IMG/VR virus record: IMGVR_UViG_3300047157_000021
Span: 1-54,951 of that record
Length of the DNA stretch: 54,951 nt
Source of the DNA: a virus
Strand: one strand, 5' to 3'
Position numbers and translations under genes: made by a program. This document shows positions 1 to 54,951 of this stretch, in pieces; positions within the stretch are counted from its first letter, which is position 1, and every line of letters starts with the position of its first letter. The notes beneath the pieces were generated by a model, which saw nothing but the letters and a program-made list of their open reading frames with translations, was not told where the DNA came from and searched no databases.

Positions 1-1685
1 CAGCAGACCAAACTGCTGCTGAAATAAGAGTTTTGGTAGAGTCTGCTACAGACAGTAATGTTTTTACTGATGCAGATCACTCTAAGTTAAACGCCATAGA
101 AGCATCTGCTACGGCAGATCAGACAGGCGCAGAAATAAAAACTTTGTATGAAGCAGAAGCTAATGCTTACACAGATGCTAAAGATACTAAACTGTCAGGT
201 ATTGAAACAGGTGCCACAGCAGACCAGACTGCGGCTGAGATACGCACTCTTGTAGAGTCTGCTACAGACAGTAACGTCTTCACTGACGCTGATCATACTA
301 AGCTTAACGCTATTGAAGCAGGAGCAACTGGCGATCAAACTAACGCTGAAATCAGGGCGGCGGTAGAAGCCGCTACTGACAGTAATGTGTTTACAGATGC
401 AGACCATACAAAGCTAAATGGTATTGAAGCTAGTGCAGATGTAACAGATACTACTAACGTAACTTCCGCTGGTGCCTTAATGGATAGCGAGGTTACTAAC
501 CTAGCACAAGTTAAAGCATTTGATAGCTCCGACTACGCTACAGCCGCACAGGGTGCTACTGCTGATGCCGCACTGCCTAAAGCTGGCGGCACTATGACTG
601 GTAATATTAATTTAGGCGACAACGACAAAGCCATCTTTGGTGCTGGGTCTGACCTACAGATTTACCATGATGGTAGTCGGAGCATTATTCAAGATAACGG
701 CACTGGAAACCTAAGAATACAGGCAAATAATCTTGAATTAAATAACGCTGACAATAGTGAAAACTATTTGTTTGCTGGTAATAACGGTGCAGTAACTCTG
801 TATTATGACAATGCTGAAAAGTTAAACACCACCAGCACAGGCATTGACGTAACAGGAAACATTGCAGCAAGCGGAACCGTCGATGGTCGTGACGTTGCAG
901 CGGATGGCACGAAGCTGGATGGTATTGAGGCTTCTGCTAATGTTACAGATAGTGCAAACGTAGGCACTTCTCTTACTGGTTTCCCTACCAATACGGACGC
1001 AACAGGTTCAGATCTTATTCCTGTATATGATGTGTCTGCTAGTAGATGGGAAAAGCAAACAATTACCAATGCGGCATTGCAAGGTCCAACTGGCCCTACA
1101 GGTCCAACGGGTCCAGCAGGATCTAATGGTTCTAATGGCTCTACGGGGCCAACTGGCCCTACTGGTCCGACTGGCCCTACGGGTCCAGCGGGTGCTGACG
1201 GTGATGATGGTGCTACTGGCCCTACGGGTCCAACAGGACCAACTGGCCCTCAAGGTAATTCTGTCACAGGTCCGACTGGACCAACAGGGCCAACAGGGCC
1301 ACAAGGTAACTCTGTTACTGGACCAACGGGGCCAACGGGGCCAACAGGGCCGCAGGGAAATACAGGAGCAACAGGCTCACAGGGTCCAACAGGGGCTACT
1401 GGCCCAACGGGTCCAACGGGTCCAACGGGTCCAGCAGCTTCTGCGTCTAATACTTGGCAAGCCTACGGCCTATCTAACAATACTCAATATCAAAATACTA
1501 CTGGCGAAATTATGCAAGTAGCTGGAATTGGCTTTTCATATGTAGGAACAAGCTCTGCTTCTGCTCCAGCGGGAGACCCAGGGGTTCCTGGTGTTGATTA
1601 CCCAACATTTCACTCCGTCATTCCAAACAACCAATATTTTCAAATAAGTTATGTTGCCAATGCAACAGTAAGGGCTTTAAAGTAA
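1..1685 (+). CDS. Collagen-like tail fibre 1, C-terminal part (gene continues from 54243)
   Basis: This is the 3' part of a fibre gene whose 5' part is at 54243-54951. Joining the ends gives one open frame of 797 residues, in which base 54951 plus bases 1-2 form a Thr codon. The frame has no start codon of its own at the left edge, only an internal TTG at 33. It begins with three or four copies of a roughly 34-residue repeat (consensus TADQTxAEIR, then [17 protein letters not shown]). A shaft segment follows, then a collagen-like domain of about 39 Gly-Pro-Thr/Gly-X-Y triplets encoded by about 1083-1436, then an 85-residue C-terminal head. Such fibres trimerise and bind the host surface. Fibre 2 at 2684 shares the repeats and collagen region. 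The role as a fibre is clear; the receptor is unknown. Confidence 0.85.
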
Positions 1686-2065
1686 TGAGACATTTTTACA
1701 GTCAGATTAAAGGACAATATTGGGTTACGCTTACAGATGATCTTGGGCCTCATATTACTGACGCATACCCATCAGATACGATAGAAGTAGAGCCGCAACC
1801 TACCCCTATACACACTTATGAAAATGGCGTTTGGGTAGAGCCTGACGCTCAAACTTCTTATGATTATTATTCTAATGAAGTTAGACAGTTAAGAAACTAT
1901 TTATTATTTGCTGAAGTTGATGCTATCTCTAACACACCGCTAAAATGGCAAGATCTTTCAGAAGAAAAAAAGGCTGAGTGGGCGCAATATCGCAGGGATT
2001 TATTAAACATTACAGAGCAGTCTGGATTTCCGCAAAATGTGATTTGGCCCACTAAACCTGCATGA
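1685..2065 (+). CDS. Tail fibre assembly chaperone-like protein
   Basis: This 126-residue protein overlaps the last base of the fibre stop codon (TAATG). Its C-terminal half has the signature of the phage tail assembly chaperone family (Pfam Phage_tail_APC): an RxLRNYLL-like helix, then Asp, a short loop, and a YRRDLL...GFP..V.WPTKP ending. Proteins of this kind lie directly after fibre genes and help fold or attach them. The N-terminal half is acidic and has no motif I recognise. Position and C-terminal pattern agree; the family call is from memory of the motif. Confidence 0.65.
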   Translation: MRHFYSQIKGQYWVTLTDDLGPHITDAYPSDTIEVEPQPTPIHTYENGVWVEPDAQTSYDYYSNEVRQLRNYLLFAEVDAISNTPLKWQDLSEEKKAEWAQYRRDLLNITEQSGFPQNVIWPTKPA

Positions 2066-2117: not shown

Positions 2118-2666
2118 ATGGACAATGTAAGACAAAACTGGCAGCTATTTTCTGCTGCACTATCAGAAGATATAGTAGATAATATTGTAAAACAAGCTGG
2201 TGAAACAGCAGAAGCTTGTACCTTTAATAGCAGCGGTGCAGATATACGGAAGAGTAAAGTATCTTGGCTTACAAATAATAAACCTGTATTAGATTTACTT
2301 TATGACTTTGTAGATATAGCAAATAGAAATGCTTTTAACGCTCATATTTATAAAAAAGCGGATATACAATTTACAGAATACTTAGGCTCAGAAGGTGGTC
2401 ACTACTCTTGGCATCATGACATTAATTGGAACCGCAATGATGGTTTAGATCGTAAGCTATCTGTAACTGTACAGCTTTCTCATGTAGATGAATATAAAGG
2501 TGGTGCCTTTTCTTTTAGCGAGTGCACATCACCTGACCCAGTAATAAGTAAGCAAAAAGGAACAGTATTAGTATTTCCTTCTTATTTACAACATTCAGTA
2601 CAACCCGTAACGAGCGGAACACGAAGAAGTTTAGTAGCTTGGTTTGAAGGCCCAAAGTGGGTTTAA
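2118..2666 (+). CDS. Fe(II)/2-oxoglutarate dioxygenase, prolyl 4-hydroxylase-like
   Basis: This 182-residue protein has the double-stranded beta-helix signature of 2OG-Fe(II) oxygenases of the prolyl hydroxylase/PKHD group. The HxD iron ligands are His99 and Asp101, in a GGHYSWHHD stretch. The distal His159 lies in a YLQHSVQPV segment, and Arg169/Arg170 follow to bind 2-oxoglutarate. All ligands are present, so activity is expected. Start ATG 2118 has AAGGA 7 bases upstream. It sits between two fibre genes with collagen-like Gly-Pro-Thr repeats, which makes fibre proline the obvious candidate substrate. That link is inference; related oxygenases occur in many marine phages with unknown targets. 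Confidence 0.85.
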   Translation: MDNVRQNWQLFSAALSEDIVDNIVKQAGETAEACTFNSSGADIRKSKVSWLTNNKPVLDLLYDFVDIANRNAFNAHIYKKADIQFTEYLGSEGGHYSWHHDINWNRNDGLDRKLSVTVQLSHVDEYKGGAFSFSECTSPDPVISKQKGTVLVFPSYLQHSVQPVTSGTRRSLVAWFEGPKWV

Positions 2667-2683
2667 CTAAATAGGATACGTAG

Positions 2684-5167
2684 ATGACCAGTAAGGCAAG
2701 AGAGTTAGCAGATCTTTTAGATGCTAGTGGTAACATCAAAACAAAATCAGGTAGGACTACACAAGGTCGTAACTTGAGTAATGATGGTACTAAGTTAGAT
2801 GGTATTGAAAGTGGGGCAACTGCAGATCAAACGCACTCAGAGATTCGTGCGTTAATTGTTGCTGGTAGTGATACTAATGTATTTACTGATACTGATCACT
2901 CTAAGCTAGATGGAATAGAAGCTGGTGCAACAGCGGATCAGACAGATGCAGAAATAAGAGCAGCAGTAGAAGCAGCTACAGATAGTAATGTTTTTACAGA
3001 TGCTGACCATACGAAGCTTAACGCTATTGAGGCGGGTGCTACTGCTGACCAAACAGATGCTGAGATTAGAGCGGCTGTAGAGGCTGCTACAGATTCTAAC
3101 GTATTTACTGACGCAGATCACTCTAAGCTAAATGCGATTGAAGCAGGTGCTACTGCTGACCAGACTAAAGCTGACATTGATGCACTAAACATTGATGCAG
3201 ATACTTTAGATGGTAAGCAACTAGCTACTATTGAATCTGAGTATCAGTCATATGCAAATACGGCTGCAGCTAACGTAGTTGACTCAGCACCTGCTGCACT
3301 TAACACACTTAACGAATTAGCTGCAGCATTAGGTGACGATGCTAACTTTGCTACAACTACAGCAACTAGCTTAGGAGAAAAACTACCTAAGTCTGGTGGT
3401 CAAATGACTGGTAACATTACTATGTCAGGATCACAAACTGTAGACGGTAGAGACTTATCTGTAGATGGTGCAAAGCTAGATGGCATAGAAAGCGGTGCTA
3501 CTGCTGACCAAAGCGCTGCAGAAATAAGAGCATTAGTGGAAAGTGCATCTGATAGTAATGTATTTACTAATGCAGATCATAGTAAACTAAATGGAATTGA
3601 AGCCTCTGCTAATGTTACAGATAGTGCTAATGTAGGTTCATCTCTTACTGGTTTCCCTACTAATACAGATGCAGTATCTAGTGATTTAATTCCAGTGTAT
3701 GACGTTAGTGCAAGCAGATGGGAAAAGCAGACTATAGCTAATGCAGCTTTGGTTGGACCTACAGGCCCGACTGGTCCTACGGGTGCTACTGGACCTACAG
3801 GCCCACAAGGTTCTACAGGCCCACAAGGTTCTACGGGTCCAACAGGTTCAACAGGCCCAACAGGTTCAGATGGTGATGATGGAGCTACTGGACCTACGGG
3901 TCCAACGGGGCCAGCGGGTAATAACGGTGGTACTGGACCAACTGGACCAACTGGCCCGACAGGACCACAAGGGCCAACGGGTCCACAAGGAAACTCTGTC
4001 ACTGGACCTACGGGGCCACAAGGGCCAACAGGTAATACTGGCTCAACAGGCCCAACAGGCCCGACTGGACCAACTGGACCTTCTGGTAATCCCTTTGGTG
4101 GCGGTACGTTTACAGGTAATGTAAGTTTTGGAAACAACTCCATTACAGACGTTGAGAGCATTACTGTTGATAATGCTATTTATTCAACTGGCGATACTGA
4201 TACTTACATGCAGTTTCACTCAGGCAATCAATGGCGGGTAGTAGCTGGGGGTAATGAGAGCCTAGAGGTTCGCAGCGGTGTTGTTAACGTCGATATGCTT
4301 GAAATTCAGGGAACCGACGTAATTAGCTCAGGTCGGCAATTACAGAACATTGCTTCTTTAGACAGCACAACGCAATCAACTATTGCGAGTGCTTTAGGGT
4401 TTTTAACGGTTGATGTGTTGGTTGTAGCTGGCGGCGGTGCAGGAGGGATTAACAGATCTGGCGGCGGTGGCGCTGGTGGCGCTCTTGAAATAAACGGTGC
4501 GTTAGCATCAGGATCATCCGCTATAGTTATTGGTGGTGGTGGAGCATCCTCTGGTTCTGTATCAAGCGGAAGTAATAGCGCTGCGGGCGCTCTAGGCACT
4601 GCAACTGGTGGAGGTAGAGGCGCTACTCTTGGAACCCCTGCGGGTCAGGCTTTATCTGGTGGATCAGGCGGCGGCGGTGCTGCGCATGGCTCATATAGTA
4701 GTGGTGCATCTGGTACATCTGGGCAAGGTAACTCAGGAGGAAATGGCTCTACAGCTGCTGGCGGTGGTGGCGGCAAAAGTAGCTCTGGCAGCAATGGGTC
4801 GGGCAATAATGGCGGTGCTGGTGGCTCAGGTTTTGTCTGGAATGGCTTTATAACCGTAGCTGGCGGCGGCGGTGGCGGCCAGAATGGCAACAGTGGCGGT
4901 GGTGGTGCTGGTGGCTCTGGTGGTGGCGGCACAGGGGCTAGAGGCTATGTTGTTGCTGCAACTGGGGGATCTGCAAACACTGGCGGCGGCGGCGGTGGTG
5001 GATCTGGTCAAAGCGGTGTTGCAACTGGTTTTGGTGCTGGTGGTGGTTCTGGGGTTGTTGTTATCAGATATGCTGGCGGTACTGCTGCAACAGGCGGCAC
5101 TATAACTTCATCTGGTGGCTACACATATCATAAGTTTACGTCCTCTGGTACTTTCACGGTAAGTTAG
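2684..5167 (+). CDS. Collagen-like tail fibre 2 with glycine-rich tip
   Basis: This is an 827-residue fibre. Its N-terminal third holds four or five copies of the TADQTxAEIR / [17 protein letters not shown] repeat, also present in fibre 1. A short block nearly identical to fibre 1 ([12 protein letters not shown]...[15 protein letters not shown]) leads into a collagen-like Gly-Pro-Thr domain encoded by about 3754-4089. A middle beta-rich region follows, then a roughly 230-residue glycine-rich tip starting with [13 protein letters not shown] and ending VVIRYAGG, typical of glycine-rich phage adhesin tips. The two fibres therefore share shaft modules but end in different heads. Start ATG 2684 has AGGA upstream. 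Long antisense frames over the repeats are composition shadows. Confidence 0.85.
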
Positions 5168-6800: not shown

Positions 6801-7277
6801 ATGGCATACGATTATCTTGGGTTAGTTAATGATGTAAATCGTAGGCTTAATGAAGTAGAATTAACCTCTGCTAACTTTGCTACTACTACAGGTTTTTATA
6901 GTTTTGCTAAAGATGCAGTAAACTCTTCTATTCGTCACATTCAACAAGAAGAGTACGAGTGGCCTTGGAATCATGTAGAGCAAGAAGAAGTTCTACTTGC
7001 TGGTGAAACTCGCTATAGCTATCCTTATGATGCAAAAACAATTAACATGAATAGTTTTAGAATTAAACGTGATGATAACCTAGCAACGAATACTATTAAA
7101 CTTAAAGTACTTAGTTATGAAGAATACCTTGACAAACATGTAGATACTGAGTATAACTCTAGTAATACAGGAACTCCACGTTATATAGTACGTGCCCCTA
7201 GTCGAGAGTTATTAGTAGTACCTAGTCCTGATAAAGCATATGAATTAATATATGAGTATTACTACTACAGGATTTGA
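6801..7277 (+). CDS. Tail tubular protein A-like (T7 gp11 type), N-terminal fragment
   Basis: The 158-residue frame looks like the first two thirds of a T7 gp11-like tail adaptor: AYDYLGLVNDVNRRLNEV start, a central WPWNH segment, then a strand-rich end. The frame stops at TGA 7275, just after YEYYYY. The protein clearly continues in the frame that carries 7252-7485 (TTGFDLELFSDVPNLPEQY). One surplus base near 7260-7270, in the TAC TAC TAC run, would restore a protein of about 228 residues. I treat the two as one gene broken by a sequence error or a true mutation. Confidence 0.7.
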   Translation: MAYDYLGLVNDVNRRLNEVELTSANFATTTGFYSFAKDAVNSSIRHIQQEEYEWPWNHVEQEEVLLAGETRYSYPYDAKTINMNSFRIKRDDNLATNTIKLKVLSYEEYLDKHVDTEYNSSNTGTPRYIVRAPSRELLVVPSPDKAYELIYEYYYYRI

Positions 7278-7485
7278 CTTAGAACTTTTTTCTGACGTAC
7301 CAAATCTTCCTGAACAGTATCGTTACGTTATTGTAGATGGTGCAATGTATTACGCATATCAATTTAGAGGCGATATGCAAGCAGCACAATTGTCTATGCA
7401 AAAATTTACACAGGGTATTAAACATTTACGTAGTATAAATATAAATCGTACAGAGTATGTACGTGACTTGAGAGTACACTTTTAA
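7252..7485 (+). CDS. Tail tubular protein A-like, C-terminal fragment
   Basis: This is the second part of the tail tubular protein A-like gene, in the +1 frame relative to 6801-7277. The ATG at 7252 is an in-frame codon inside the upstream gene and has no ribosome-binding site, so it is unlikely to be a real start. The segment FDLELFSDVPNLPEQYRYVI, then YYAYQFRGD, is typical of the C-terminal half of this adaptor family. The stop TAA overlaps the next ATG (TAATG at 7483-7487). Confidence 0.65.
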   Translation: MSITTTGFDLELFSDVPNLPEQYRYVIVDGAMYYAYQFRGDMQAAQLSMQKFTQGIKHLRSININRTEYVRDLRVHF

Positions 7486-32631: not shown

Positions 32632-33723
32632 TTATATAAGCGATTCGTTTCGTTGTGTCAATGCATTATTTGCACTGACGTAAGTATGTTTCACATATGG
32701 TTTCACAGAAGACACATGATTGTGTCCTGTCACCGCCATGACTTGGGGCAATGATACACCTGCCTCAACCATCTGTGTTACACCAGTCCTACGCAAGTCC
32801 ATAAGACGTAGCTCTTCTGGTAGTTCAGCTAACCGCATGACCCTTCTACCCACTTTGGATAGTCGTTCCATAGCATATGGTTTGTACACCCTACCCATAG
32901 GTCTAGGATGAGGTACTACGAAATGAGTAAGCGTCTGATACATAGCCCGTTGCTCCTTCAACATCTCACACAGATCATCTGATACTGGTAGTGACACGTC
33001 AGATCTACGCTTGCTCTGCTCAAGGTTAAGCCTCTTACCTTCAAGATCTAGGCTATGCCATTGTAACATACGCATGTCACCTAGTCGCTGACACCACTCG
33101 TATGCCATCTGAACAATCAGACCCACACTCCTGTACTCAAAGTCACTGTAAGCAACCTCAAGAAATCTAACCACATTGTCGTGTGTCCATACCACCTTTC
33201 GTTGAGGTGGAGACTTACGCTTGATGTTAGCCCAAGGATTATATGTGGTATGCTCCATCTGTATCGCATAGTTGTACACCCTACTTGCACAGGTTGCCGC
33301 ATGATTAGCAAAACTTACACCACGTTTGACCCATTCTTCATATGCCCTCTTTGCAACCTTAGCGGTAACGTGTTCAAACTTACGACCACCCATTGTCTGG
33401 TGCAGTATGGTAAGAAAGTACCTGTAGTCCACCTTAGTTGTATCACGTAACATATTGAAATCATTAGACCTATAGTAAAAGTTAATAAGATCTGTGACCT
33501 TGCTGCTCGACTTGATATGCCCAACCTTAAGTTGTTCTTCACGCCACGCATCAATAGCCTTGTTATGCTTACGGACAATCTGACGCACCTGCTTTAGGTC
33601 ACTCCCATACTCCTCACGTTTAACCAGACCCTCATCGACTAACATCTGAGGTGGGTTGAAGCGGTATGAGATCACCCCAGAGGGTGATTCTCGTTCTTGT
33701 ACATAGCGTGGAAGTTTAGGCAA
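32632..33723 (-). CDS. int: Tyrosine recombinase / integrase
   Basis: A 363-residue phage integrase. The C-terminal catalytic domain has Arg213 (CQRLGDMRML), Lys near 238, Asp-Leu-Arg-Arg at 309-312 (second Arg; Asp replaces the usual His before it), His334 in TGHNH and the probable nucleophile Tyr343 in KPYVKHTY. The N-terminal half is a basic SAM-like DNA-binding domain. It could mediate lysogeny or resolve genome multimers. No excisionase or clear attP is seen beside it. It sits between DUF932 and the primase. Confidence 0.9.
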   Translation of the reverse strand: MPKLPRYVQERESPSGVISYRFNPPQMLVDEGLVKREEYGSDLKQVRQIVRKHNKAIDAWREEQLKVGHIKSSSKVTDLINFYYRSNDFNMLRDTTKVDYRYFLTILHQTMGGRKFEHVTAKVAKRAYEEWVKRGVSFANHAATCASRVYNYAIQMEHTTYNPWANIKRKSPPQRKVVWTHDNVVRFLEVAYSDFEYRSVGLIVQMAYEWCQRLGDMRMLQWHSLDLEGKRLNLEQSKRRSDVSLPVSDDLCEMLKEQRAMYQTLTHFVVPHPRPMGRVYKPYAMERLSKVGRRVMRLAELPEELRLMDLRRTGVTQMVEAGVSLPQVMAVTGHNHVSSVKPYVKHTYVSANNALTQRNESLI

Positions 33724-54242: not shown

Positions 54243-54951
54243 ATGACAATTAAGTTTGCAAATCGTGTAAAAGTAAGTACGTCTACTACAGGAACAGGTA
54301 CTATTACCCTTGGTTCTGCAGTAGGAGGGTTTCAGACTTTTGCTCAAGGTGGTATCCTTAATGGTAACTCAGTACGCTACACAATTCTTAATGGTAACAA
54401 CTGGGAAGTAGGCACAGGAGTCTACACTCATAGCGGAACCACTATGTCAAGATCTTACGAGGAAAGCTCTACAGGGTCTTTACTTAATTTAACAGGTGAA
54501 TCAGAAGTATTTATTACTACGTCTGCTACTGATATTGAAAACTTAGGTAATCGCTCTATTGATTACTTTTACTTTACTGCTACATCAGGTCAAACAGCGT
54601 TTACAGGTAATGATGGCAATAGCAATCAACTAGCATTTTTTGAAGATAACGTATTAGTATTTCTTAACGGTATTGTCTTAGAAGGTGGTGGTACAGACTA
54701 TAGTGTTTCAGGTGGAAATACTGTTACTCTAAGTACAGGTGCTACTGTTTCAGATGAGTTAAATATTGTAGCGTTTAAGTCCTTTACTGTAGCTGATGCT
54801 GTACCTAAATCTACTGGTGGGCAGTTTGATGCTAATGTAGACTTTGCTGCAGGTATTGACGTTACAGGTAACATTACTGTTACTGGTACTGTAGATGGAA
54901 GAGATGTAGCTGCAGACGGTACTAAGCTAGATGGTATAGAAGCATCTGCTA
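54243..54951 (+). CDS. Collagen-like tail fibre 1, N-terminal part (continues at base 1)
   Basis: Starts at ATG 54243 ([20 protein letters not shown]), with AAGGA upstream. It runs open to the window end: 236 complete codons plus one base. The N-terminal domain (residues about 1-190) has [17 protein letters not shown] and a [17 protein letters not shown] segment, typical of marine phage fibre N-termini that dock to the tail. The last residues ([20 protein letters not shown]) are the start of the repeat that continues at the left end. Confidence 0.85.

Follow-up and report, generated by a model that had tools for sequence, protein, structure and literature searches.

A putative prolyl hydroxylase in a tailed-phage fibre operon that tracks the proline of collagen-like fibres

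The mimivirus enzyme L230 hydroxylates the virus's own collagen-like protein, and hydroxylysine is found in the particles (PMC9614988); thus, a virus can modify its own collagen in this way. PBCV-1, a virus of eukaryotic algae, encodes a small 2-oxoglutarate (2OG)-dependent collagen prolyl hydroxylase (vCPH; 5c5t). Among prokaryotes, the prolyl 4-hydroxylase (P4H) of Bacillus anthracis, a chromosomal enzyme with no phage-fibre link, hydroxylates both the X and the Y prolines of Gly-X-Y collagen peptides (PMC8968730). Here we describe an Fe(II)/2OG oxygenase gene in IMG/VR record IMGVR_UViG_3300047157_000021, analyzed over its full 54,951 nucleotides (the window), where it stands in a structural operon with two genes for collagen-like tail fibres. 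We propose, with a probability of roughly 0.8, that it encodes a phage prolyl hydroxylase that would act on the X-position proline of the Gly-Pro-Thr (GPT) shafts in the phage's own two fibres. We rate virus-encoded collagen hydroxylation as a known kind of system; new would be its occurrence in tailed phages, its location in fibre operons, and its match to the residues of the fibre.

The gene product (182 amino acids [aa], ATG start codon) matches Pfam family PF13640 (2OG-FeII_Oxy_3) with 59.9 bits over a cut-off of 27 (E value of 5e-16) and PHROG_61, "2OG-Fe(II) oxygenase," at 1e-31. The iron triad, H99-x-D101 and H159, and the basic 2OG-binding residue R169 are invariant across 39 viral homologues with 32 to 94% identity. 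The active site is intact, and the complete HxD...H...R set read in the initial annotation is confirmed. An AlphaFold2 model made from the 39-sequence alignment has a mean predicted local distance difference test score (pLDDT) of 93.5. Foldseek results against the PDB placed this model closest to prolyl hydroxylases, with 4iw3, 5c5t, 4j25, 6t8m, and PHD2 as the top matches; the leaders include the Pseudomonas putida prolyl hydroxylase with EF-Tu, PBCV-1 vCPH, a Dictyostelium prolyl hydroxylase domain (PHD) enzyme, and human PHD2, and the PKHD/PiuC structures are scattered among the matches rather than leading. In a sequence profile search of solved structures, PKHD-type enzymes are nearest (E value of 1.3e-10), scoring better than a known P4H, that of Chlamydomonas (2jig; 2.4e-5). 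The match to PiuC is not full length, spanning about residues 86 to 177 of the 182 aa against chains of 225 to 243 aa. The modelled fold supports a peptidyl-proline hydroxylase, although a fold alone fixes neither substrate nor regiochemistry.

Like vCPH, the protein is a small virus-encoded 2OG enzyme with the same prolyl hydroxylase fold (Foldseek rank 2; E value of 3.6e-11), and it is encoded with a collagen-like viral protein as its candidate substrate, as seen from the operon and from syntenic co-loss. The two share about 18% identity, and unlike vCPH, the window gene lies in a tailed-phage fibre operon, follows fibre composition, and has X-position proline in GPT as its proposed target. 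The P. putida enzyme (4iw3) is the best fold match (TM score of 0.72), but its known partner is EF-Tu and the sequence identity is 20%. The PKHD-type enzymes (PiuC; Sbal_3634, 3dkq), the closest solved structures by sequence, are larger, and we know of no link between them and fibres. Classical collagen P4Hs have a lysine as 2OG ligand, and an arginine marks the PHD type; since R169 is invariant and lysine is not found at this position, we do not file the enzyme as a classical collagen P4H. As a single domain of 182 aa, it also lacks the architecture of the PLOD/LH type, in which a PLOD glucosyltransferase is followed by a C-terminal 2OG domain. PHROG_61 of marine phages is a formal family match: the window gene fits just the C-terminal third of a 689-position model, which has this length because a GT25-PLOD-2OG protein is included, and the function category of the family is moron/auxiliary metabolic gene only. 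The automatic names "procollagen-proline 3-dioxygenase" and "procollagen-lysine 5-dioxygenase" are already attached to some viral proteins of the superfamily, so the name itself is not new. A literature search of incomplete coverage on phage fibre hydroxylation or Gly-Hyp-Thr (Hyp, hydroxyproline) helices returned no paper that connects genes of this kind with phage fibres. An oxygenase of the cyanophage style, adjacent to uvsW, or one with a nucleotide or DNA function was also considered; such relatives are distant (about 35%) and lie outside the clade.

We investigated the association with fibres from both sides. The enzyme-side sample comprised 64 related viral loci. Each viral relative of at least 45% identity with a few kilobases upstream has a GPT-bearing Gly-X-Y fibre upstream on the same strand, and the relatives of this identity without one are in loci truncated roughly 1 kb or less from the enzyme. 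For the fibre side, we used DNA patterns of GPT, GAT, and GIQ repeats to select loci, blind to the enzyme, whose presence was scored with our own hidden Markov model at a cutoff of at least 80 bits. The oxygenase was found in 13 of 122 GPT-repeat loci, always downstream and on the same strand, compared with 1 of 126 GAT-repeat loci and 0 of 120 GIQ-repeat loci. The sole GAT-repeat match (L218) has a large fibre with 25% proline at X; in this locus, one protein (L218:10258-12315) fusing methyltransferase-like, GT2, and 2OG domains is encoded downstream of a 2836-aa collagen-like fibre with 438 triplets. The initial annotation had set as a test whether relatives occur mostly in phages lacking collagen-like repeats. 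In the gene's own clade the opposite holds, fibres being present, but the wider 2OG family and orthologues in SAR116 bacteria occur without collagen.

Fibre and enzyme are also replaced together at syntenic positions. In the window's HMO-2011-type lineage, a conserved gene beside the fibre region served as anchor, and 31 loci were scorable: the GPT fibre and the oxygenase are both present in 4 and both absent in 27, and no locus is mixed. Neither was present in the stretches of cultured HMO-2011, CRP-1, and CRP-345 that were read. A second syntenic lineage (anchor, L024:5397-6923) gave 6 loci with both, 21 with neither, and 0 mixed. It also contains lower-scoring 2OG paralogues (123 to 142 bits) beside non-collagen fibres, so not all tail-cluster oxygenases are of the window gene's kind. 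Runs of 2OG oxygenase genes from two or three subfamilies stand behind one GPT fibre at L024:8959-10645 and L025:5616-7333. At L032:7218-8198, a Radical SAM/SPASM protein adjoins the oxygenase and a collagen-like fibre, possibly for a further fibre modification.

In some relatives (L030 and cyanophages S-CAM9 and S-PRM1), the next gene codes for a three-domain protein, roughly 600 aa long, that combines GT25, PLOD glucosyltransferase, and 2OG domains. The structure predicted for it, with moderate confidence (pLDDT, 76.9; predicted template modelling score, 0.44), matches human LH3 (PLOD3) best and also human collagen glucosyltransferase, COLGALT1, and the mimivirus L230 lysyl hydroxylase (2.0 Å over 170 columns). 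The window is without such an enzyme, and the phage version adjoins lysine-bearing Gly-X-Y fibres wherever the fibre is readable. Relatives of this PLOD-like protein are encoded in 469 viral stretches, and we added 80 loci with the gene to the sample. Among cultured phages, S-PRM1 (of Synechococcus WH7803) and S-CAM9 and S-8S55 (of WH8102) encode both enzymes together with fibres that contain proline and lysine; Roseobacter phage CRP-6 encodes just the PLOD-like protein, and its lysine-bearing fibre has 6% proline at X.

The two enzymes dissociate according to the residues of the fibre. After dereplication, 174 Gly-X-Y fibres followed by at least 4 kb of sequence were classed by proline (P) and lysine (K). 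The P+K- fibres have the prolyl-type oxygenase alone in 22 cases and neither enzyme in 80, the P+K+ fibres have both enzymes (16) or neither (11), the P-K+ fibres have the PLOD-like gene alone (11) or neither (2), and the P-K- fibres have neither enzyme in 31 cases and a prolyl-type oxygenase in 1 (L054). In PLOD-positive loci, proline at X predicts the oxygenase perfectly (16/16 versus 0/11; area under the curve [AUC], 1.00), and in oxygenase-positive loci, lysine predicts the PLOD-like gene perfectly (16/16 versus none), with Fisher values of 8e-8 and 3e-11, respectively, that treat the loci as independent although they are related. Glutamine and glutamate at X also separate the oxygenase-positive set by the PLOD-like gene, because the lysine triplets are largely GQK and GEK. 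Within the P+K- class, the oxygenase accompanies 18 of 37 fibres with a proline fraction at X of at least 0.6 and 4 of 65 fibres below 0.6. Of the residues compared, proline at X predicts the oxygenase best. Clade co-occurrence, syntenic replacement, and this double dissociation, all comparative evidence from genomes, strongly support the idea of the initial annotation that a phage may hydroxylate its own fibre.

Several observations weigh against this reading. Of 129 dereplicated proline-containing fibres followed by at least 4 kb of sequence, 91 lack the oxygenase, so fibres of this type do not depend on it. Bacterial orthologues (SAR116 and a few other metagenome-assembled genomes; L503 to L518) are 40 to 55% identical over the best segment, those of SAR116 about 40 to 48%, and the tree places them within the phage sequences. 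Neither a collagen domain nor a GPT repeat was found in SAR116 genomes carrying the orthologue; a collagen substrate in these carriers was therefore rejected, and some members of the oxygenase clade act on another substrate. The bacterial orthologues were possibly acquired from phage and turned to a new substrate. More distant 2OG paralogues lie near tail genes without collagen. The P and K thresholds were picked post hoc, though the gaps are wide (0.09 to 0.14 for proline at X and 0.06 to 0.18 for lysine). Independent evolutionary changes number just about 8 to 11: tree-based pairs on supported branches are 2 in the PLOD tree and 2 and 4 in the two syntenic lineages, all concordant and none discordant (for 8 of 8, simple arithmetic gives a two-sided sign probability of 0.008), and over all branches the changes are 3, 3, and 5, every scored pair being concordant.

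That GPT fibres are always accompanied by the oxygenase proved false, since most are without it. Near GPT fibres without the oxygenase (among L066 to L185), GT2, TPR, and methyltransferase genes are often found, and the 25 most frequent Pfam matches include no 2OG family. Judged by these neighbours, threonine O-glycosylation is perhaps another route to stable GPT shafts.

In one alternative, the oxygenase is a host take-over gene that targets a host protein, such as EF-Tu, and stands beside the fibre by chance or for regulation. The best fold match is the EF-Tu prolyl hydroxylase of P. putida, according to their PDB titles, 4iw3 and 5v7y concern the binding or modification of EF-Tu, action on EF-Tu has precedents in the prolyl hydroxylases of P. 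putida and B. anthracis, and SAR116 bacteria keep an orthologue without collagen. However, a host-directed enzyme would have no reason to follow the proline content of the adjoining fibre or to be absent beside the lysine-only fibres of related phages, and we regard this alternative as unlikely. Very unlikely is a fibre enzyme with another target residue (threonine at Y, asparagine, or aspartate) or one that prepares an O-glycosylation site. Threonine is the main Y residue, glycosyltransferase and methyltransferase genes lie near many GPT fibres without the oxygenase, and the L218 protein unites methyltransferase-like, GT2, and 2OG domains. Threonine at Y is, however, also frequent in oxygenase-negative fibres and separates the PLOD-positive set in part only (AUC, 0.78; mean of 0.39 in oxygenase-negative versus 0.54), while proline at X splits the sets completely, and the predicted fold is prolyl-hydroxylase-like. 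The threonine or asparagine target that the initial annotation had allowed for is therefore disfavoured. Hitch-hiking of an enzyme without a fibre role in a fibre-chaperone-oxygenase cassette would fit the contiguity and joint replacement of the genes and the few independent changes, but is barely credible because the residue matching persists while the cassette varies by lineage (with no chaperone or another one, with additional 2OG genes, or with a PLOD-like gene) and because the PLOD-like and prolyl-type enzymes are gained and lost separately, tracking lysine and proline.

For fibre hydroxylation by the phage enzyme, we infer catalysis, the substrate, action before folding, and a gain in shaft stability as follows. 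The fibre chains would be made late in infection and the oxygenase, from the same gene run, alongside the virion proteins. Inside the host cell, it would use Fe(II), 2OG, and O2 to hydroxylate X-position proline on unfolded chains, either ahead of trimerisation or while it proceeds. The chaperone and the non-collagen domains would then unite three chains, and the shaft would fold. Hydroxyproline would make the shaft's triple helix more stable or alter the decoration or binding of the shaft. In peptide stability work by Bann, Mizuno, and Bachinger, (Gly-Pro-Thr)10 reportedly forms no triple helix, whereas (Gly-Hyp-Thr)10 does; if this is right, hydroxylation of the fibre has a direct structural purpose. 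The prolines do sit at X, as the initial annotation cautioned (26/38 and 24/36 triplets in the two shafts), but the objection drawn from this is weak because the B. anthracis P4H accepts proline at either position in collagen peptides (PMC8968730). More broadly, it is probable that tailed phages of aquatic bacteria have a modular, residue-matched kit, in which an X-proline prolyl hydroxylase and, for lysine, a three-domain glycosyltransferase-lysyl hydroxylase are used singly or jointly according to fibre composition, as a phage counterpart of the animal-type collagen pathway, maybe of shared ancestry.

The operon has the order collagen-like fibre 1, fibre chaperone, oxygenase, collagen-like fibre 2 (Table 1). 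Fibres on both sides of the oxygenase agree with the sandwich described in the initial annotation, except that a PF16778 chaperone, whose start overlaps the fibre-1 stop, separates fibre 1 from the enzyme. The GPT shafts it had noted in the flanking genes are borne out by triplet counts: fibre 1 has 38 Gly-X-Y triplets (20 GPT; threonine at Y in 25/38) and fibre 2 has 36 (17 GPT; threonine at Y in 24/36), and just 8 and 5 prolines, respectively, lie outside the shafts in the open reading frames (ORFs) as read in the window. PF01391 (Collagen) matches fibre 1 and misses fibre 2, whose shaft is interrupted; Gly-X-Y runs were therefore counted directly, and PF01391 was set aside as a fibre detector.

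Table 1. Features of the fibre operon in the window and loci of the PLOD-like gene in relatives
Feature	Position	Strand	Evidence
Fe(II)/2OG oxygenase, proposed fibre prolyl hydroxylase	2118..2666	+	PF13640, PHROG_61, invariant residues, AlphaFold2 model, Foldseek
Fe ligands of oxygenase	H99, 2412-2414; D101, 2418-2420; H159, 2592-2594	+	codons
2OG-binding R169 of oxygenase	2622-2624	+	codon
Fibre-1 gene, 5' part (tail-fibre N-terminus), continues in frame at position 1	54243..54951	+	PHROG tail fibre matches; joined ORF
Fibre-1 gene, 3' part, tail fibre with collagen-like shaft	1..1685	+	PF01391 54.7 bits; PHROG tail fibre families
Collagen-like shaft of fibre 1, proposed substrate	1083..1436	+	Gly-X-Y count
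Tail-fibre assembly chaperone	1685..2065	+	PF16778 Phage_tail_APC 3.5e-11; PHROG tail fiber assembly
Fibre-2 gene, collagen-like shaft and Gly-rich C-terminal domain	2684..5167	+	PHROG tail fibre matches; PF21722 Gly_rich_2, residues 566-796
Collagen-like shaft of fibre 2, proposed substrate	3755..4093	+	Gly-X-Y count
GT25, PLOD-GT, and 2OG protein, resembling LH3/L230	L030:10522-12282; L410:6561-8402 (S-CAM9); L597:7926-9695 (CRP-6); L600-L679		

The phage is an HMO-2011-type podophage: its portal protein shares 78 to 81% identity with the portal proteins of Puniceispirillum phage HMO-2011 and Roseobacter phages CRP-1 and CRP-345. Joined in frame, the two contig ends encode a 797-aa fibre 1 with no internal stop, and a relative (L002) has a contiguous 797-aa homologue of the joined protein; because the ends join, the record probably represents a complete, circularly permuted genome that is broken within the fibre-1 gene. 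At 6801-7485, an SU10-type adaptor gene is split into 158 aa and, in another frame, 77 aa, and relatives have an intact ORF of 227 to 229 aa; the split is either a frameshift or an assembly error. A tyrosine-recombinase-like integrase (PHROG_1; 4e-36) is encoded at 32632-33723 on the minus strand amid the replication genes.

Marine phage genomes contain many 2OG oxygenases, which are mostly listed as auxiliary metabolic genes with no known purpose, and a Baltic Sea survey called the viral use of prolyl 4-hydroxylase "cryptic" (PMC9301287). If our reading is true, one defined clade of them would be a virion-maturation enzyme, with which a phage hardens or decorates its own host-recognition fibre post-translationally. 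The folding of GPT shafts would be explained, and fibre maturation could depend on oxygen and iron. The clade would also offer compact enzymes for hydroxylated recombinant collagen made in bacteria. The cultured phages S-CAM9, S-PRM1, S-8S55, and CRP-6 put this reading within experimental reach, and it raises the question of whether these enzymes are phage relatives of the collagen-modifying enzymes of animals and giant viruses.
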